Below, piece by piece: positions 27,979-35,403 of a stretch of 64,000 bases of DNA. Source of the stretch: Vibrio palustris. Its GTDB lineage: Bacteria; Pseudomonadota; Gammaproteobacteria; Enterobacterales; Vibrionaceae. The translations under genes and the position numbers were made by a program. The stretch covers positions 1,674,001 through 1,738,000 of the forward strand of contig NZ_AP024887.1 in NCBI RefSeq assembly GCF_024346995.1. Reading direction: 5' to 3'. Under the pieces are notes generated by a model. The model worked only from the letters and a program-made list of their open reading frames with translations, did no database searches and was not told the DNA's origin. Every line of letters starts with the position of its first letter. Positions within the stretch are counted from its first letter, which is position 1.

Positions 27979-28114
27979 AACACTCCTTCCTTATGATAAG
28001 CGCTAAAGGTAAGTGTAATGACAACGAGACGCTTCGCCACTGCTGGGCTATCAAACATGAGCTCTGTGGCATAAAACGACAATGAGAGAGATGACGGCGC
28101 TCTCAAAATAACCG

Positions 28115-28148
28115 CAAAAAAAAAAACCACACAGTAAACTGTGTGGTT
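28115..28148 (-). terminator. Strong leftward terminator between fadL and fadI
   Basis: A perfect 10-bp stem with a TAAA-type loop is followed on the minus strand by a run of about 11 T. It lies about 150 nt upstream of fadI and no recognised leftward gene precedes it. Confidence 0.8.
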
Positions 28149-28300
28149 GCAATGAAACAATTAACTCGCGTTAACTAAAGTAATCAGAGAACTGATTAGG
28201 GAGAAAGTAAAGTCAGCCTTCAAAGGAAAGGTCATCTTGCTCACACGTTACTCTTTCGACTAACGAGATGACGAACATCAATATAGCGCATTCAACAAAA
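28125..28300 (-). ncRNA. Candidate small RNA or fadI leader, terminator-ended
   Basis: The leftward strand carries two inverted repeats in a row and then a strong intrinsic terminator. The first is TAATCAG-TTCT-CTGATTA (28182-28199). The second is TTAAC and GTTAA around 28161-28174. The terminator is a perfect 10-bp stem AACCACACAG (28125-28134) with CTGTGTGGTT, followed by 11 T. The right end is not known; 28300 is a guess from the AT-rich promoter-like DNA around 28280-28320. It could be a free small RNA or an attenuated leader of fadIJ. Confidence 0.45.
28161..28235 (-). CDS. Possible 24-residue ORF in the fadI leader
   Basis: On the minus strand an ATG at 28235 opens a frame for 24 residues, MTFPLKADF then a hydrophobic stretch ending VNAS, with TAA at 28161-28163. 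The stop falls just before the terminator hairpin. No clear ribosome site is present. It may be a leader peptide, a small membrane peptide, or chance. Confidence 0.25.
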   Translation of the reverse strand: MTFPLKADFTFSLISSLITLVNAS

Positions 28301-28555
28301 TAAAATTTGTAACAGATCAATTTTGTTGCAGTTAAACCCCATATAACACGGGTGGTTGATACAGAACCAGTCCTTACGAAGATTTTAGCACGATTAAAAA
28401 CCATTAACTATCTGATTTTTATGTTAAAAATAGAATTATTGTCGTGTAAGACATTTTTCCAACTCTAAATAGAGTCATTACTCTAAATAATGCATATTTC
28501 CTGCATATTTACGTTTGTTCACGCTAATTTCTCACAAAATGTCACCTATTTTTGC

Positions 28556-28572
28556 AATGGTCGGATTTGTAT
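28556..28572 (+). promoter_or_regulatory. Candidate FadR operator before fadL
   Basis: AATGGTCGGATTTGTAT fits the FadR consensus AACTGGTCNGACNTGTT with the core TGGTC and TTTGT intact and about three mismatches. It lies about 90-105 nt upstream of the fadL ATG, next to AT-rich promoter-like DNA. FadR control of fad genes is established in Vibrio and E. coli; this particular site is inferred. Confidence 0.45.
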
Positions 28573-28659
28573 CTTATACACTAGCCACTAGTATCAGCGC
28601 GAAATTGAGTATTAACTCAAAATAATGCCCTATAGAGGCAGACTTGTAGGATAAATAAA

Positions 28660-29931
28660 ATGAAAAAGACTCGCTTGTATCAAAAAACGTTGCTCGCAGT
28701 GGCCGTCGGCCTTGTGACTCAACAAGCATCCGCAGCCGGTTTCCAATTGAATGCACAATCCGCTACTGGCCTCGGTCGGGCATTTGCTGGTGATGCAGTG
28801 ATCGCCGATAATGCCTCATCCATGGCTCGTAACCCAGCCACCATGGCATTATTTGATCACACTGCAATGTCTCTTGGGGTTGAAACCATCAAGACACTGA
28901 TTGATGTGAACGAAGCAACCTATAACGGGGTTGCACCTGTTGATGACGTCGATGATGTCGGTAGCACCTCTGTCGCGCCAAACTTGCATTTAATTGTGCC
29001 AGTTAATGATAAGTTTGCTTGGGGTATCAATGCCTACACCAACTTTGGCACGAAGACCGAATTTGCTGATGACTATATTGCATCAGAATATGGAGGCAAA
29101 ACCGATCTTAAAAGCATCAACTTAGGTTTAGCCGGTTCGTACCGTTTAAATCAAGAATGGAGTTTCGGCGCGGGCATCGATATTTTGTATGGTCAAGGCA
29201 CGATGCAGCGCTATGCAAGTAACACGTTAGCTCAAGCTAGTTCAGCGCAACTGGGCACCACCATTCCGGCAGGAACGGCATTAGTCGATGTTGATAAAGC
29301 CGATGGCTGGGCCGTTGGATTTAACGTCGGTACGGTATACGAATTAGATGAAAATAACCGTTTCGGTTTTGCTTACCACTATAGCCCTAAATTTTCAGCA
29401 AAAGACGATTACGGCCAAGAAATTACGCTACCACTGCCCGACATTGCCGAGTTTTCCGGTTTTCATAAAATCAAAAACACCAAGTTCGCGGTGCATTACA
29501 GCGTGCAGTGGATTGGTTGGGATTCGTTTGACAATATCGACTTTGATGACTTAGATGCGTCGCAATCTCCAATTGTGAGTGCAACATCTGGCAGCAACTA
29601 CAAAAAACCATACCAATGGCAAGATGGCTGGCACTACGCGATTGGCGGCACCTATTACATGACAAAAGCCGTCACCTTACGTGCTGGTTACATGTACGAT
29701 ACCAGTGCTCAAGATAAACTGACGTCGATTTCAGTCCCTGATTCGGATCGCCAATGGTTCTCTGCAGGTATTGGGTATAAACTGTCGAAACAGTCAACTA
29801 TCGACTTTGGCGCGACGTATCTGTTAGGCGAAAAAGTGGACGTGACCGAAAATGGTGCGGGAACAACTTTAACGGCAACCACGAAAGCCGATGCTATCTT
29901 ATTGGGTCTCCAATATAGCCATACTTTTTAA
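28660..29931 (+). CDS. fadL: Outer-membrane long-chain fatty acid transporter FadL
   Basis: An OmpP1/FadL/TodX beta-barrel of 423 residues. The signal peptide ends at about residue 25 (QQASA), before AGFQLNAQSATGLGRAFAGDA, the typical plug-domain start. NPATMALF follows near residue 58. Aromatic-rich beta strands continue to the C-terminal LLGLQYSHTF with Phe last, as for barrel insertion. The neighbouring fadIJ genes degrade the imported fatty acids. A candidate FadR site lies upstream and a terminator follows. Confidence 0.94.
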   Translation: MKKTRLYQKTLLAVAVGLVTQQASAAGFQLNAQSATGLGRAFAGDAVIADNASSMARNPATMALFDHTAMSLGVETIKTLIDVNEATYNGVAPVDDVDDVGSTSVAPNLHLIVPVNDKFAWGINAYTNFGTKTEFADDYIASEYGGKTDLKSINLGLAGSYRLNQEWSFGAGIDILYGQGTMQRYASNTLAQASSAQLGTTIPAGTALVDVDKADGWAVGFNVGTVYELDENNRFGFAYHYSPKFSAKDDYGQEITLPLPDIAEFSGFHKIKNTKFAVHYSVQWIGWDSFDNIDFDDLDASQSPIVSATSGSNYKKPYQWQDGWHYAIGGTYYMTKAVTLRAGYMYDTSAQDKLTSISVPDSDRQWFSAGIGYKLSKQSTIDFGATYLLGEKVDVTENGAGTTLTATTKADAILLGLQYSHTF

Positions 29932-29971
29932 ACGATAGAAATGTGTTGGCAAATACAGCCTATGGATCATC

Positions 29972-29998
29972 AAAAGAGCCGCGTCGCGGCTCTTTTTT
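29972..29998 (+). terminator. fadL terminator
   Basis: AAAAGAGCCGC and GCGGCTCTTTT pair around GTC and are followed by T. Confidence 0.9.
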
Positions 29999-30087
29999 AT
30001 GCAAACAGGGTTGATGTACTGTTCGCATGTACCTGTACTGGCAACCTTTTATAGTATGGGTGTCTTGTTTATTGTTGTTTATTAGGT

Positions 30088-30106
30088 CTTCGCGCCTTTT
30101 GCGAAG
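30088..30106 (-). terminator. Weak hairpin after the ATPase-peptidase gene
   Basis: CTTCGC and GCGAAG pair around a 7-nt loop, about 35 nt after the leftward stop at 30140. No T run follows, so it is a doubtful terminator. Confidence 0.3.
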
Positions 30107-30139
30107 GTACGGTGGAATGATTGGTTGGACATCATTATG

Positions 30140-31675
30140 TCATCTTGAAGGATTACCGAACAACCTACTCCAGAACCCCGCCTTCTTCGCGGGACTAGGG
30201 TCGTGTCTCGCAGCCTGTGGGTGCTGTGATGCGGCCTGGATTTCAACGACTTGAGTTTTTGTCGACTCTTGCGGCAATTGGGTATCGGCGGAAGCTATGC
30301 GTAGAGCCTTAGACGCGACCATCCCGAGAAGCGAGGTCAACTCGTGCTCGAAACCGATAGTGACGTCGGTTTCGCCGCTTCGGGCATGAGCGATCTCGTG
30401 AAGCAAGGTGGATGCATAGCTCTCGACAGAAGCGAGTTCGCTACGCTTGATGATGATTTCCGTGCCAGTCCAAAGGCCGCTGGCCTCCGAGAAGCTTCCG
30501 GTCTCGGGGCGCATAATCTCCGAGATCTTTACCGATTGAACCCTCGAAGGAAGTCCACCGACAAGATCTGCTAGCCTTCCGGTCATGTCGAATACCCATC
30601 TTTCGGCCTGCATAAGCTTTTCGGGCGGGACGAATTTGAATTCGAAGCAATCATTCCACTCAGAAATGAAATTACCCAAATCCTGTATCGTGTTACCTTT
30701 CGTATCGACCTGTCCCGACAGCTTTTCTTTGACAGTGCTCGGTATCGTAATAATCTGCCGCCCGTTCACCCGAGCCTCTTCGACGAAACGCGGGGCATTC
30801 ATCATCTCCTCATCCGTTAGAAACAGTACATTTCCAGATGCGTTGGTGATCTTCGACGCATGTACGGAGACATCCGTCCATTTCATTTCGTCATGCAGCG
30901 TGCCGCTCCCGAAGTTGCCGAGATCATCGACTAAGGCTCTGGCAACTGCTTCCGAAGAAGAAGCGAGCAGGACGGACTTCACTCGGTCCGAGTAGGCGGT
31001 TCTCCCGACATTCGTCCTTTCGCGATTGAGAGCTTTCTTGATAACGGCCGTCAGCGAAGTGATGTTGTAGGAGAACAAGAAATTCTCCTCTTCGGCTACG
31101 CGGATGCCATTGATGTAAATAAAGGAGACCTTACCCGCCTTCTGCAGGACTTCTCCATATTGAGTTTTTTCTAGGTTTTCGTCACCGGAGAAACACAGGA
31201 ACAGACACTTCGCCTGCTCGACGTCCTCAACAGAACAACCTTTCAAGATGAATTCAGTTCCGACGAATGTCGGATCGGACGGTTCGGAGATGCAGGCGTG
31301 CAGCGTGATAACATCAGAGAAATCATGCTTCTCAGAGCGATCGAAGGAGACATCGCAGAACTTAGAGCGGATACGGGTCTCGATGCCCACTCGGTCGAAT
31401 GTAGCCAGAGCGTCCTTCAAGCCTACGCCGAACTTTCCGATGAGACCGGGATGATCGAGCTTTTCCTGATTCTCGTTCATCGTGAAGTGCTCGTGGCGGA
31501 GGCCACGGCCAAAGTCCCTGATGCACCAATTACCGTCGCCGTCGCGGGAGATGGTAATTTCCCGCGTGCCAGTCAATATTTGCTCGTCGAGCGCGTTTGC
31601 AATGATTTCCCGAATGGCATGGTATGCATCCCAGTTTTCAAGCATCCGCTCGATGTTCAGGTCAAATTTCTTCAT
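30140..31675 (-). CDS. GHKL ATPase with C-terminal HExxH peptidase motif
   Basis: I do not recognise a named family. From the ATG at 31675 the protein has 511 residues. The N-terminal third is a GHKL (Hsp90/MutL/gyrase type) ATPase: E23, N27 and D30 in the N-box (REIIANALDE), DFGRG at 54-58, and GKFGVGLK at 80-87. The middle is unassigned. HEIAH at 426-430 is a zinc-peptidase motif, with Glu 443 or 445 (GFEHEL) as a candidate third ligand. The last 15 residues are basic and aromatic. An earlier start at 31732 is possible. GC and codon choice look higher and different from the neighbours, and the gene sits alone between fadL and a phosphatase gene. Confidence 0.8.
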   Translation of the reverse strand: MKKFDLNIERMLENWDAYHAIREIIANALDEQILTGTREITISRDGDGNWCIRDFGRGLRHEHFTMNENQEKLDHPGLIGKFGVGLKDALATFDRVGIETRIRSKFCDVSFDRSEKHDFSDVITLHACISEPSDPTFVGTEFILKGCSVEDVEQAKCLFLCFSGDENLEKTQYGEVLQKAGKVSFIYINGIRVAEEENFLFSYNITSLTAVIKKALNRERTNVGRTAYSDRVKSVLLASSSEAVARALVDDLGNFGSGTLHDEMKWTDVSVHASKITNASGNVLFLTDEEMMNAPRFVEEARVNGRQIITIPSTVKEKLSGQVDTKGNTIQDLGNFISEWNDCFEFKFVPPEKLMQAERWVFDMTGRLADLVGGLPSRVQSVKISEIMRPETGSFSEASGLWTGTEIIIKRSELASVESYASTLLHEIAHARSGETDVTIGFEHELTSLLGMVASKALRIASADTQLPQESTKTQVVEIQAASQHPQAARHDPSPAKKAGFWSRLFGNPSR

Positions 31676-31729
31676 TGCCACATTCACTCCGCTTCGATTT
31701 CGCTTGATGCCCAACATTTTAATAGTGCA

Positions 31730-31847
31730 CATGCGCGTTTAAACCGAGCTTGAGAGTTCAAAAAAATAAACTCTAAGTATCTGTTTTAAAAGCATTTTTC
31801 AGGGTTACCCCAAAGCAAGTCAAAATACCAATTCGAGCATGCGCGTT
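31730..31847. repeat. Direct repeat CATGCGCGTT upstream of the ATPase gene
   Basis: CATGCGCGTT occurs at 31730-31739 and again at 31838-31847, 108 bp apart, both in the promoter-side flank of the ATPase-peptidase gene. They could be operator copies or traces of an insertion. No third copy was found left of the gene. Confidence 0.4.
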
Positions 31848-31971
31848 ATATCATTTTTCCACAGCACGTTATTCTGGCTGATAAAATGGTTAACGATTGA
31901 TCTTAATACACTTTCATTGACACAACTATGACAAACTAAGCAAAAAAACACTACTCAGGTCATAAAAACAG

Positions 31972-31996
31972 GCATCCAATATGCAATTGAGGATGC
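31972..31996 (-). terminator. Probable terminator of the phosphatase gene
   Basis: GCATCC and GGATGC flank a 13-nt loop directly after the stop codon; CTGTTTTTATG follows on the minus strand. Confidence 0.45.
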
Positions 31997-32470
31997 TCAT
32001 GTGGTTTGCATAGCTGGCAAACGTAATTGCGCTGCTTGCTCGAGTAAATCAAGGACATAATCAAAACCGTCGCTTCCACCGTAATAGGGATCTGGAATTT
32101 CATCCGTTTCAAGGCCGAGGCCGGCTAACAGTAATTGAATTTTATAACGGTACTGCGGCGGGCACATGGCGGTGAGATCCGCCACATTTTGCGTATCGGC
32201 GGCAAAAATATAATCAAAGCGGGCAAAGTCTTGCAACGCAACGGGGCGTGAGCGCATGTGCTCAAAAGAGTAACCGCGTTGCTCACCGGCCGCTCTCGCT
32301 CGCGGATCCGGTTTTTCTCCCTCATGAAAACCAAGTGTGCCTGCAGAATCAATATCGATGTTGATGCCGAGTCTTTGCGCTTGGTATTGAAACACCGCTT
32401 GCGCTGTTGGCGAACGACAGATATTGCCCATGCAAACCATGAGTACTTTTACTGGTGGTTCAATCGTCAT
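31997..32470 (-). CDS. Low-molecular-weight protein-tyrosine phosphatase
   Basis: An arsenate reductase-like tyrosine phosphatase of 157 residues. The catalytic loop is VCMGNICRSP (the C(X)5R motif) near residue 12, and the general acid Asp lies in EIPDPYYGG near residue 125. The remaining family signs (SAGTLGFHEGEKPDPRA; RPVALQDFARFDYIFAAD) are present. No polysaccharide kinase or export gene is next to it, so the substrate is not implied by context. Confidence 0.93.
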   Translation of the reverse strand: MTIEPPVKVLMVCMGNICRSPTAQAVFQYQAQRLGINIDIDSAGTLGFHEGEKPDPRARAAGEQRGYSFEHMRSRPVALQDFARFDYIFAADTQNVADLTAMCPPQYRYKIQLLLAGLGLETDEIPDPYYGGSDGFDYVLDLLEQAAQLRLPAMQTT

Positions 32471-32621
32471 CGCTTTCTCCTAGCCTAATGGAACCTATAC
32501 ACTCTGTCGCATAATGTGCTGCTTTGCAACGGTACGATATTATCAAGTTTGTCGTATTCAGTGATTACGCATTATCGTATGATAATCACCATCGTTCATC
32601 GCGACAGCAATAGGATTAATC

Positions 32622-33215
32622 ATGTCAGATCAACAAAGACATCAAGCACGACAACAAAAAGTTAAAGAAAACGTTGATGCGAAAATTGCGTCAGCGCAAC
32701 AGGAAAAGGGATTACTACTGGTAGTCACAGGCAATGGAAAAGGCAAATCTACGTCTGGCTTTGGCACCATAACGCGCGCTATCGGGCACGAGCAGAAATG
32801 TGCAGTCGCCCAATTTGTAAAAGGAACTTGGGATAATGGCGAACGTAATGTGTTGGAAAAGCTTGGCGTTGAGTTTCAAGTCATGGCGACTGGCTTTACA
32901 TGGGAAACGCAAAACAAACAAACCGATACCGACGCAGCGCAAGCGGTGTGGAAAGAATGTTTGCGCATGCTGCAAGATCCCTCATTACACGTCCTGCTGT
33001 TTGATGAAATCACCTATATGATTAACTTTGGCTACATTGATCTCGATGAGGTGATCGACGCGCTACAACAGCGCCCGCCAATGCAATCTGTGATTATCAC
33101 CGGGCGAGGCGCACACCGCCGCTTAATAGAGCTTGCAGATACCGTATCGGAAGTTAAAAACACCAAGCATGCTTTTGATTCTGGTATCAAAGCGCTTAAA
33201 GGCGTTGATTGGTAA
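32622..33215 (+). CDS. btuR: Corrinoid adenosyltransferase BtuR/CobO
   Basis: Transfers adenosine from ATP to cob(I)alamin to make adenosylcobalamin. The P-loop GNGKGKST is at residues 37-44. FVKGTWDNGERNVLE and LLFDEITYMINFGYIDLDEVIDAL match the family. The 197 residues match E. coli BtuR. It stands alone with its own terminator. I did not see a cobalamin riboswitch in the 150 bp upstream. Confidence 0.95.
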   Translation: MSDQQRHQARQQKVKENVDAKIASAQQEKGLLLVVTGNGKGKSTSGFGTITRAIGHEQKCAVAQFVKGTWDNGERNVLEKLGVEFQVMATGFTWETQNKQTDTDAAQAVWKECLRMLQDPSLHVLLFDEITYMINFGYIDLDEVIDALQQRPPMQSVIITGRGAHRRLIELADTVSEVKNTKHAFDSGIKALKGVDW

Positions 33216-33221
33216 TAACAA

Positions 33222-33256
33222 AAAAGCCTCATGCAATAGAATGGCATGAGGCTTTT
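33222..33256 (+). terminator. Terminator between btuR and asmA
   Basis: AAAAGCCTCATGC and GCATGAGGCTTTT form a long perfect stem around a 9-nt loop. It can serve both converging genes. Confidence 0.9.
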
Positions 33257-33282
33257 ATAAACATGACGATGAAAATGGCTCG

Positions 33283-35403
33283 TTAGTTAAACAGGCCTTT
33301 AATCAAGCCATTAACGGCTTTTTTGGTTCTCTCGTCTTTGATTTTACCATCGAGTTTTTCTAAACCGCGATCGACTTCCTTACGCGCTTTCTGTTTCAAC
33401 ACATCGTCAAACACTAATTTGAATTTAGGCTTCGCCCACTGACCGTGAATATTAAGTGGGATAGTGACATCACGCAGTTCGTCAATACTCTTTCCACCCT
33501 GCCCTTTAAGGCTAGAAACCAGCGAAGTACGCACTAACATATCCATCGTTTCTTCTAAATAGTTAGCACTGCCTTCCCCCTGAATACGCAATAGAGGTGA
33601 CTGTAAATGTAAGCTGGTTACATTGGCAACACCTTGATCTAATTTAACTTTAGCCGTTAAAGAACTGAAATCAGTTTTCTGCGGCGCATCATCTTCAACC
33701 TTTTGTCCTTTCAGTTTGGCATAAGTTGTACGAATCAACTGCGCGACATTGACCCCGTTAATCGAACCATCTTTAAAAGCCATATCCAAAGAGCCTTCAA
33801 GATTAGGCTTAAGTATCTCCGGTGTAAGGCCTGCGCCCTGTACGGAAAAATCGGCATTCATATTACCTGCCAGCCACTGCTTCTTCGTGAGATCTTTTAG
33901 TAGAGGCAATGCCTCAACATGTTTAATGGTCCCGCTTGCTTTGTACGTCGCGGGTAAATCATTGCCATCCAGTGTCGCTTTAGCATTCACATGACCGTCA
34001 TACAAATCCGCATCAAAGTGGTTGAGTAAGACCTTACCTTGGTGAATCGCCATGTTAATATCAACATTATGTAGTTTCGCATTGGCGGCTTTAAACTGCT
34101 TCATCTTCACAGAGCCGCTCACATCTAAACCACTTAACGCACTGAGATCCGGCTCCGCCGCTTTTTGGTCAATTAACGATTGATCGTGGGTTTTCGCTGG
34201 TACCGTTTTCGGTTTTGCTTGAGACTGAGCCTCTGGAGACACTAAAAACGGATCCAAATCCACATTATCGCTGGATAAAGAAAAGGTAATTTTAGGGATC
34301 TCATCTAACTTGGCGTTGACTTTACCTTGCCATTGCATCTCATTGATGTCTAAGGTATCAAGATTAAGCTTTGCTTGCTTCTTACCAAGGTCATAACTAC
34401 CCTTTGCGGCTAATTGCAGTTTGAGTGGCGCATTAGGTACACTTTTACCATCAAGCTGAGTATTCACATTAAATTGTGTCAAACTAATATGATTCAATGC
34501 CTCATCAATCGTCATCGATGCTTGTCCATCGGCCGACAATGCCATGTCATTGGCCTTACCAGACACCTGATACTTGATAAGATTTTCCTTCGTGAGGCTA
34601 AGCGATTCTGCCGTCACCTCTGCCTGCTTAATTTGTACTTGCTTGTCGCTGTAGCTGGCCTTGATTGACATATCACGTAACGTGCTATCTTGCCAAGGAT
34701 TAGACACATTCAGTTCCGTGGTGCCAGAGACCGCAAAGGTCTGTTGATTATGTGAGCCTTTGGCACCAAAGGTGACATTCGACCATTGGTTAACCGCAAA
34801 GTTATCAAGGCTGAGTTGTAAGTCATAGAGTTTAGTAAACGTCTTCGTTTGTTGGTCTTGGATATCCAACACCCCATTAACGATATCCACACCTTGTACC
34901 GATAGCTCCCAAGGTTGCGACGAATCATCGGTTTTAACCGTGTCTGACGGCTCTTCTTTTGCTTGAGATGGGGTTGATTTAGATTTAGTTGCTTGAGAGC
35001 TGGCCGATTCTGGCGCTTTAAAACTATCCAGATTCGATTGACCATTCTTCAATGTCTCAAGGTGTACTTCGGCTCCTTCCAAGCGTACATTGCCAATATT
35101 AAGCTCATGATCAAGCAAGCCAAAGAGTGAGACATCAATGCCTACTTCATCAACTTTAAACATATTGGCAGAAGAATACCCTTGCGGGTTCTTTAATTCG
35201 GTTTGCCCCAATTGAAAACCAATCGATGGAAAAAACTGCCAGCTAATATCGCCTGTAATAACGAGATCTAGCCCTGTTTTATCTTTCACTTGGTTGACAA
35301 TTAATGGCTTAAATTGGTTGGGATTAACAAAAATCACTAACACGATCACGCAACTAACGAGGATGGCTAATAGCGTACCGAGTAAGATAGAAAGCTTCTT
35401 CAT
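33283..35403 (-). CDS. asmA: AsmA-family membrane protein
   Basis: A 706-residue AsmA-like protein with one N-terminal membrane anchor (MKKLSILLGTLLAILVSCVIVLVIF) and a large periplasmic part. AsmA relatives are thought to help move phospholipids or affect outer-membrane assembly. Family blocks are visible: NQVKDKTGLDLVITGDISWQFFPSIGFQLG near residue 35, and the C-terminal LRIQGEGSANYLEETMDMLVRTSL then DVTIPLNIHGQWAKPKF. A Lys/Ser/Thr/Gln-rich spacer near 130-160 is low in complexity. The ATG at 35403 starts the anchor directly; the longer frame adds an unlikely leader. Confidence 0.9.
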   Translation of the reverse strand: MKKLSILLGTLLAILVSCVIVLVIFVNPNQFKPLIVNQVKDKTGLDLVITGDISWQFFPSIGFQLGQTELKNPQGYSSANMFKVDEVGIDVSLFGLLDHELNIGNVRLEGAEVHLETLKNGQSNLDSFKAPESASSQATKSKSTPSQAKEEPSDTVKTDDSSQPWELSVQGVDIVNGVLDIQDQQTKTFTKLYDLQLSLDNFAVNQWSNVTFGAKGSHNQQTFAVSGTTELNVSNPWQDSTLRDMSIKASYSDKQVQIKQAEVTAESLSLTKENLIKYQVSGKANDMALSADGQASMTIDEALNHISLTQFNVNTQLDGKSVPNAPLKLQLAAKGSYDLGKKQAKLNLDTLDINEMQWQGKVNAKLDEIPKITFSLSSDNVDLDPFLVSPEAQSQAKPKTVPAKTHDQSLIDQKAAEPDLSALSGLDVSGSVKMKQFKAANAKLHNVDINMAIHQGKVLLNHFDADLYDGHVNAKATLDGNDLPATYKASGTIKHVEALPLLKDLTKKQWLAGNMNADFSVQGAGLTPEILKPNLEGSLDMAFKDGSINGVNVAQLIRTTYAKLKGQKVEDDAPQKTDFSSLTAKVKLDQGVANVTSLHLQSPLLRIQGEGSANYLEETMDMLVRTSLVSSLKGQGGKSIDELRDVTIPLNIHGQWAKPKFKLVFDDVLKQKARKEVDRGLEKLDGKIKDERTKKAVNGLIKGLFN

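Follow-up and report, generated by a model that had tools for sequence, protein, structure and literature searches.

Within a window of 64,000 nucleotides (nt) from Vibrio palustris (contig NZ_AP024887.1, positions 1,674,001 to 1,738,000), the minus strand carries a gene for a 511-amino-acid protein (30140..31675, stop codon at 30140-30142) that combines a GHKL-type ATPase with a zincin, the fold of zinc metallopeptidases. Its start was placed at the ATG at 31675, a choice backed by alignment with relatives. A start at 31732, which would give 530 amino acids, was rejected, as it lies inside the repeat R described below and the aligned relatives begin at 31675. On one side of the gene lies a plus-strand open reading frame (ORF) at 28660-29931 and on the other a minus-strand ORF at 31997-32470. 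A preliminary description of this region, made from the letters alone, had named them by eye as fadL and a phosphatase gene, and both ORFs were confirmed in place. It had also called the gene richer in GC than both neighbors, which agrees with 52% GC as compared to 44% in the 49 other ORFs (z 2.1) and, at third codon positions, with 62% as compared to 40 ± 4% (z 5.9); codon use is the most atypical among the 50 window ORFs of at least 150 amino acids (z -4.6), all three values being computed on the 530-amino-acid ORF. An Rfam scan of positions 28000-34000 returned no match at E ≤ 0.1.

Domain architecture and conserved residues

In the predicted structures the chain opens with a Bergerat-fold ATPase domain (approximately residues 1-160; 31196..31675) and continues with a transducer-like middle domain (approximately residues 161-340; 30656..31195), which includes a conserved NRERxxVGRxAY block at residues 217-228. 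A C-terminal zincin domain (residues 345-465; 30281..30643) follows, and the chain ends in a low-confidence and probably disordered tail (residues 466-511; 30143..30280), all of these being encoded on the minus strand. The proposal that a GHKL ATPase and a zincin share one chain was thus borne out by the presence of both folds in the models. GHKL ATPases are recognized by a set of motifs comprising a Glu, an Asn, D-x-G-x-G and G-x-F-G-x-G. This set is complete in every row of a 94-row alignment, which was composed of the window protein, 20 of 120 protein matches and 73 of 83 loci after short, duplicate and near-identical entries had been dropped, and which reaches down to 45% identity among Bacteria and Archaea. 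Residues E23, N27, D30, D54, G56, G58, G80, G83 and G85, the last three within GKFGVGLK (80-87), are invariant in all 94 rows, among them the ATPase residues pointed out earlier from the sequence. Proteins P0076, P0077 and P0078 (823, 860 and 772 amino acids) each contain two ATPase motif sets and one HExxH. Such natural fusions of two heads with one protease fit an ATPase acting in pairs, although this is suggestive only and the ATP-driven dimerization is putative.

The zincin domain is equally well conserved at its presumptive metal site. The HEIAH motif (residues 426-430; 30386..30400) lies within the zincin fold of the predicted structure, and H426, E427, H430, D437, F442 and E443 are invariant in the 94 aligned rows. 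Asp437 (30365..30367) and Glu443 (30347..30349), the latter 13 residues past H430, are candidates for the third zinc ligand, which agrees with the earlier suggestion that HEIAH and a downstream Glu could form a zinc site. The strict signature HExxHxxxGxxDxxxxFE was found in 114 of the 120 listed matches and in 85 of the 94 alignment rows. Among the listed matches without it, P0043, P0059, P0072, P0076 and P0080 keep HExxH, and P0113 (323 amino acids) has neither. Because the signature recurs in 114 of 120 matches and is kept in phage and plasmid homologues, this sequence motif is far beyond chance. According to the preliminary description, a structure that buries HEIAH away from any metal-site geometry would argue against a zinc site; the predicted C-terminal fold is that of a zinc metallopeptidase, which answers this condition in part.

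When folded alone, the C-terminal domain reached a predicted local distance difference test (pLDDT) score of 94. Its closest structure by VIA-align is Wss1, a DNA-protein-crosslink protease, and on this comparison we describe the domain as Wss1-like. Profile matches are weak: the SprT-like profile matched 40 of 74 family members at E ≤ 0.1 (best 2.5e-4), and the WLM profile matched six of the 74 (best 0.002). Two homologues on mobile elements were also observed. A Citrobacter conjugative plasmid (L007, 8007-8354) encodes a 115-amino-acid zincin domain on its own with the full HExxHxxxGxxDxxxxFE signature, located among insertion sequence elements and with a hemagglutinin-repeat gene at most 8 kb away. 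In Moorella phage MTATph1 (L008, 4971-6311) a distant homologue with 28% identity over residues 12-231 retains the zinc signature and, as read by eye, shows Glu in place of the ATPase Asn.

Distribution of the family

A protein search scored 7999 candidates, 5371 of them at E ≤ 1e-3, and family composition was read from the 120 best-listed of these 5371. All 120, including the window protein, carry the Pfam label PF25856, which is precomputed on the identical protein and was not returned by the Pfam copy scanned here. The name of this label was deduced from the titles of two proteins among the matches, 'MPN635 N-terminal domain-containing'; proteins of the family are annotated in this way or as 'ATP-binding protein'. 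Pfam and NCBIfam gave only below-cut-off matches for the window protein, and PHROG 6077, a family of unknown function, matched it at 8e-20. With so many relatives, the idea of an isolated novel fusion was rejected. The preliminary description had presented a lone pairing without a characterized counterpart; no characterized PF25856 member was found, and MPN635 had no literature match in the open-licence library, but the protein belongs to a large family and is no one-off.

Relatives reach 87% identity among the protein matches listed, whose sources include Vibrio cholerae, V. parahaemolyticus, Aeromonas, Shewanella, Agarivorans, Janthinobacterium and Chromobacterium, and 88% in locus L009. Relatives were found in 190 stretches of GTDB contigs, of which the best 80 show 46-88% identity and come from many bacterial and archaeal groups. 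Further matches came from seven plasmid records (at least 80% of the query covered), from three of 21 viral-contig stretches with the pattern, one of them weak, and from one of 50,697 phage records, where the match is partial. Genome surveys, in contrast, showed a sparse distribution. The gene is carried by one of 61 related genomes, one of 196 genomes of the genus and three of 398 genomes of the phylum (E ≤ 1e-40); the V. palustris genome is counted each time and is the single carrier in the genus. In one archaeal phylum two of 156 genomes carry it, both already in our set, and blastn found no match to the gene in E. coli genomes. A quick tree of the 94 rows puts the window protein in a pair with P0016, labelled V. 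cholerae (support 96). The 23 phylum groups on this tree require 33 label changes, where 22 would be the minimum, and some archaeal rows sit beside bacterial ones, a pattern that fits repeated transfer, each single case being unproven. A Nitrosopumilus metagenome-assembled genome (MAG) has two copies (L028 and L030), one behind an SbcD-SbcC pair and the other behind a 365-amino-acid ORF.

Horizontal gain of the window gene is well supported, because the gene is rare in the genus and atypical in codon use. The same conclusion had been drawn in the preliminary description, which considered that presence in most Vibrio genomes with normal codon use would speak against it; the opposite was observed on both counts.

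Integron remnants and flanking repeats

The route of this gain is suggested by the sequences at both ends of the gene. The leader 5' of the ATG (31676..31715, minus strand) opens at a core site of the GTTRRRY type, GTTGGGC (31709-31715), and reads GTTGGGCATCAAGCGAAATCGAAGCGGAGTGAATGTGGCA. A near-identical leader precedes the relatives in a Comamonas MAG (L009; 88% identical protein, core site GTTGGGC) and in a Nitrosomonadales MAG (L010; 83%, GTTAGGC), whereas the DNA preceding the leader aligns poorly among the three. In L009 a complete attC site (GCCCAAC ... GTTAAAC) comes after the stop codon. Folding of the bottom strand of this site gave z -4.4, none of 200 shuffles being as good, and an ORF 3.35 kb upstream matches positions 1-196 of the 315 in the integron-integrase model at 265.4 bits, as compared to a cut-off of 265. 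The window gene is followed by the same attC left half (GTCCAACCAATCATTCCACCG..., with GTCCAAC; 30085..30130, minus strand), which then diverges into a repeat, L. The right half is missing, so that the complete attC of L009 is absent here, and folding of the remnant gave z -2.3, with 5 of 200 shuffles doing as well. The leader is present without a clear attC in L010, and L011-L014 have neither; the gene therefore also travels by other routes. On these sequence comparisons the window gene seems to have been gained as an integron gene cassette. As its attC is truncated we refer to it as a former cassette, which is probably fixed in place in the first position behind an attI-like region.

This region is repeat R (31709..31986, minus strand), a sequence of about 280 base pairs (bp) ending at the core site and containing both copies of CATGCGCGTT (31730-31739 and 31838-31847). 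The decamer occurs twice in the window as compared to 0.26 expected, and one of 100 shuffles reaches two. The preliminary description had noticed it as a repeated sequence next to the gene; the repeat is real but is best read as part of an attI-like integron region, and a plain insertion scar was rejected since both copies lie inside R. The copy at the window gene is one of 15 in the stretches read, which are spread over both contigs of the genome (C1 and C2), some being shorter or only about 65% identical. Copies of R stand upstream of varied, cassette-like genes, and copies of L often stand downstream in the same orientation. Near two copies of R, at distances of 77 and 124 bp, there are integron-integrase fragments (C1:924902-925027 and C1:936352-936723), the second of which matches the model from position 17. 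No integrase above the family cut-off was found in this genome. Because of these two copies near integrase fragments, R is most simply taken for an attI region that belonged to a now decayed integron. R was found in one of 227 genomes of the genus at E ≤ 1e-10, and the best match to fadL elsewhere in the genus is 72% identical, so that no close empty site was available for comparison.

Repeat L at the window gene, AATAAACAAGACACCCATACTATAA (30049..30073, minus strand), follows the truncated attC. Sixteen further copies (AATAAACAAGACACCC...) were observed in stretches L124-L133 with a sharp inner boundary after cassette-like genes. Between other copies the similarity extends outward for about 30-350 bp, like a 3' conserved segment, and some copies are adjoined by ORFs that look transposase-like by eye. 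One R...L unit (C2:460271-466533, in L128) contains four large ORFs, two of which by eye start like an OLD-type ATPase and a helicase, and is possibly another defence unit.

Proposed function and comparison with known systems

The genomic neighbors of relatives provide hints to function. In 64 of 85 loci a same-strand ORF of at least 90 amino acids lies within 250 nt; these counts omit L004, whose gene was not recovered among the called ORFs and where the annotated upstream neighbor is DprA. SbcD-type genes occur in 12 of the 85 loci over 1.14 megabases (Mb) of flank, where 0.6-1.1 would be expected assuming one or two SbcD per 2 Mb. Runs in which SbcD, SbcC and the GHKL gene share a strand and either overlap slightly or lie at most 41 nt apart were found in archaea (L026, L032, L045, L030) and in Novosphingobium (L058, L060), and in the five of these pairs that were checked, all except that of L060, Pfam assigned metallophosphatase and SMC/AAA types. 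For a wider view, we collected 123 close ORFs (same strand, gap of at most 250 nt, at least 110 amino acids, at most two per side) from loci other than L007, L008, L060, L061, L090 and L091, with ORFs above 1500 amino acids left aside. Among the 25 commonest of their 99 Pfam families are SMC/AAA, OLD-type, metallophosphatase, restriction, RmuC, DUF2130 and Holliday-junction-nuclease families, none in more than seven ORFs. PADLOC matched LmuB-, mad3-, AriA-, GajA- and OLD-type models among the close ORFs (345 models). Individual cases include a Salinibacter plasmid, where the gene is embedded in a type I restriction gene cluster with a SprT gene two genes further on, and Euzebya, where it follows DprA. 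An upstream 338-amino-acid ORF at a distance of 11-12 nt, which by eye is rich in Cys and has a membrane-like segment, is shared by Rhodocyclus (L012, 8973-9989) and Azoarcus (L014, 8972-9988) and is a candidate partner.

We tentatively propose, with slightly less than even confidence, that the window gene is a former cassette encoding an ATP-gated metalloprotease that acts on protein-bound DNA in repair or defence, a function that is inferred. With ATP, two ATPase heads would dimerize to form a clamp of the type known from GyrB, MutL, MORC and Hsp90. As this clamp closed on DNA, or on a protein bound to DNA, it would position or unmask the zincin, which would then cut the held protein. The most likely target would be protein on DNA, whether crosslinked to it, blocking one of its ends, or of phage or plasmid origin, as suggested by the SbcD linkage and the Wss1-like fold. 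Where SbcCD/Mre11-Rad50-type nucleases are encoded alongside, the protease may cooperate with them in repair or defence. Defence is plausible because VcSduA, a GHKL ATPase with an effector, protects V. cholerae, variants in either activity having lost phage defence according to the accessible text of PMC12137116, and because integron cassettes hold defence genes (Darracq; Kieffer, as told in the accessible part of PMC12409362). The ATP-gated protease that the preliminary description offered as one possible role is thus kept as a possibility; the phage-defence role offered with it is possible as well but unproven, and no PADLOC family matched the window protein at E ≤ 1. A more ambitious version, which we regard as doubtful, sees here an undescribed prokaryotic protease for DNA-bound proteins, in which an ATP-driven GHKL clamp with a fused Wss1/SPRTN-like zincin would clear protein from DNA ends or crosslinks for SbcCD/Mre11-Rad50-type nucleases, and which would have passed from one phylum to another in part as an integron cassette, serving both repair and defence against protein-capped or protein-coated invading DNA.

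Several observations weigh against the main proposal. Foldseek placed the minigluzincin abylysin, not Wss1, first for the C-terminal domain (E 0.017) and gave no match at E ≤ 0.001, YbeY-type entries, nucleases by title, are among the top VIA rows, and the match to the Wss1 sequence in the PDB is not significant (E 0.21). The third zinc ligand of Wss1 is a His. This residue is not conserved here, the WLM pattern HExxHxxxGxH of Wss1 being unmatched with T436 at the second-His position, so that D437 or E443 would need to substitute. In the structural comparison of the whole chain Hsp90 scores level with DNA clamps, so that DNA binding is putative. No DNA-repair gene adjoins the window gene. In 73 of the 85 loci no SbcD was seen in the flanks retrieved, which in many cases are short, and common descent among several of the 12 SbcD loci leaves perhaps four independent cases. 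PADLOC also matched restriction, JetB, PtuB and other models (212 models) among 123 of 337 far ORFs from the same loci. We do not claim a defence enrichment beside the gene, given that PADLOC counts models rather than distinct ORFs and that the near and far sets share loci.

The same far-ORF matches bear on a related alternative, in which the GHKL part senses infection and activates the zincin to cut an essential host protein. Such an abortive-infection effector, conceived by analogy with VcSduA, would agree with the phage-defence phenotype of that protein, with the GajA-, OLD-, AriA- and restriction-type ORFs close to relatives and with the storage of defence cassettes in integrons. However, the effector of VcSduA is a nuclease, no PADLOC model matched the window protein, enrichment next to the gene is unsupported, and 45-60% identity across phyla is high for a fast-evolving effector; we consider this alternative possible but rather unlikely. 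Less probable still is an Hsp90-like chaperone-protease for protein quality control, whose clamp would remodel misfolded clients for the zincin to cut. TRAP1 and Hsp90 are indeed the best full-length structural matches, the sacsin N-terminal model matches below the cut-off, and TPR proteins are found in three of the 123 close neighbors, but AAA/SMC ATPases and metallophosphatases lead among the neighbor families (7, 7, 6, 5 and 5 of 123, most of the ORFs being in none), the Pfam scan of the window protein returned no Hsp90 family, and the patchy distribution would be unusual for core proteostasis. By analogy with the zincins of polyvalent proteins and ArdC, the protease could also help phages, plasmids and cassettes to disarm host restriction or defence proteins. 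The plasmid records, the viral contig L089 and the phage homologue, the copy within the Salinibacter restriction cluster, and weak MPTase-PolyVal matches in 21 of 74 members are consistent with such a helper, but the rarity of the gene among viral-contig stretches and phage records makes it improbable. A catalytically dead zincin that serves as a scaffold for the ATPase is very improbable, for although pseudopeptidases are known (PMC11266112), HExxH, D437 and E443 are invariant in all 94 rows.

The proposed ATP-gated protease can be set beside known systems. To our knowledge, dedicated DNA-protein-crosslink proteases have been described mainly in eukaryotes, and we know of no GHKL part in Wss1/SPRTN, from which the window protein further differs in the absent WLM-position His and the non-significant sequence match. 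If the proposal is true, a clamp ATPase with a Wss1/SPRTN-like protease would be widespread in bacteria and archaea, and the clearing of protein-blocked DNA would become directly testable in prokaryotes. The minigluzincins abylysin and selecase, Foldseek's first matches, have a similar minimal zincin fold, and the third ligand could be supplied by a Glu of the last helix; they are, however, stand-alone domains, and the HExxH-x12-E spacing of the window protein is short. Among the titles and abstract openings listed from an open-licence library, none pairs GHKL with HExxH or a zincin, a pairing that may be in print elsewhere; a term count of the 2008 MORC paper (PMC2292703) gave no occurrence of protease, peptidase or metallopeptidase, and the accessible part of a jumbo-phage review (PMC7824862) names GHKL and zincin only apart. 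With phage-defence integron cassettes the window gene shares its organization as a single gene with a core-site leader and an attC remnant, but its attC is truncated and the gene is not named in the accessible part of PMC12409362; it would be another candidate among the defence genes stored in integrons. The closest parallel in design is VcSduA, a Shedu-type protein of paraMORC3 architecture, a Vibrio protein that according to PMC12137116 likewise begins with a GHKL ATPase, continues with a middle domain and ends in an enzymatic effector, all within a single chain. Its effector is a PD-(D/E)xK nuclease, while the window protein has a zincin and gave no match to DUF4263, the Shedu C-terminal nuclease, in the Pfam scan; if our reading holds, a protease would be added to the GHKL-plus-effector design known from VcSduA.
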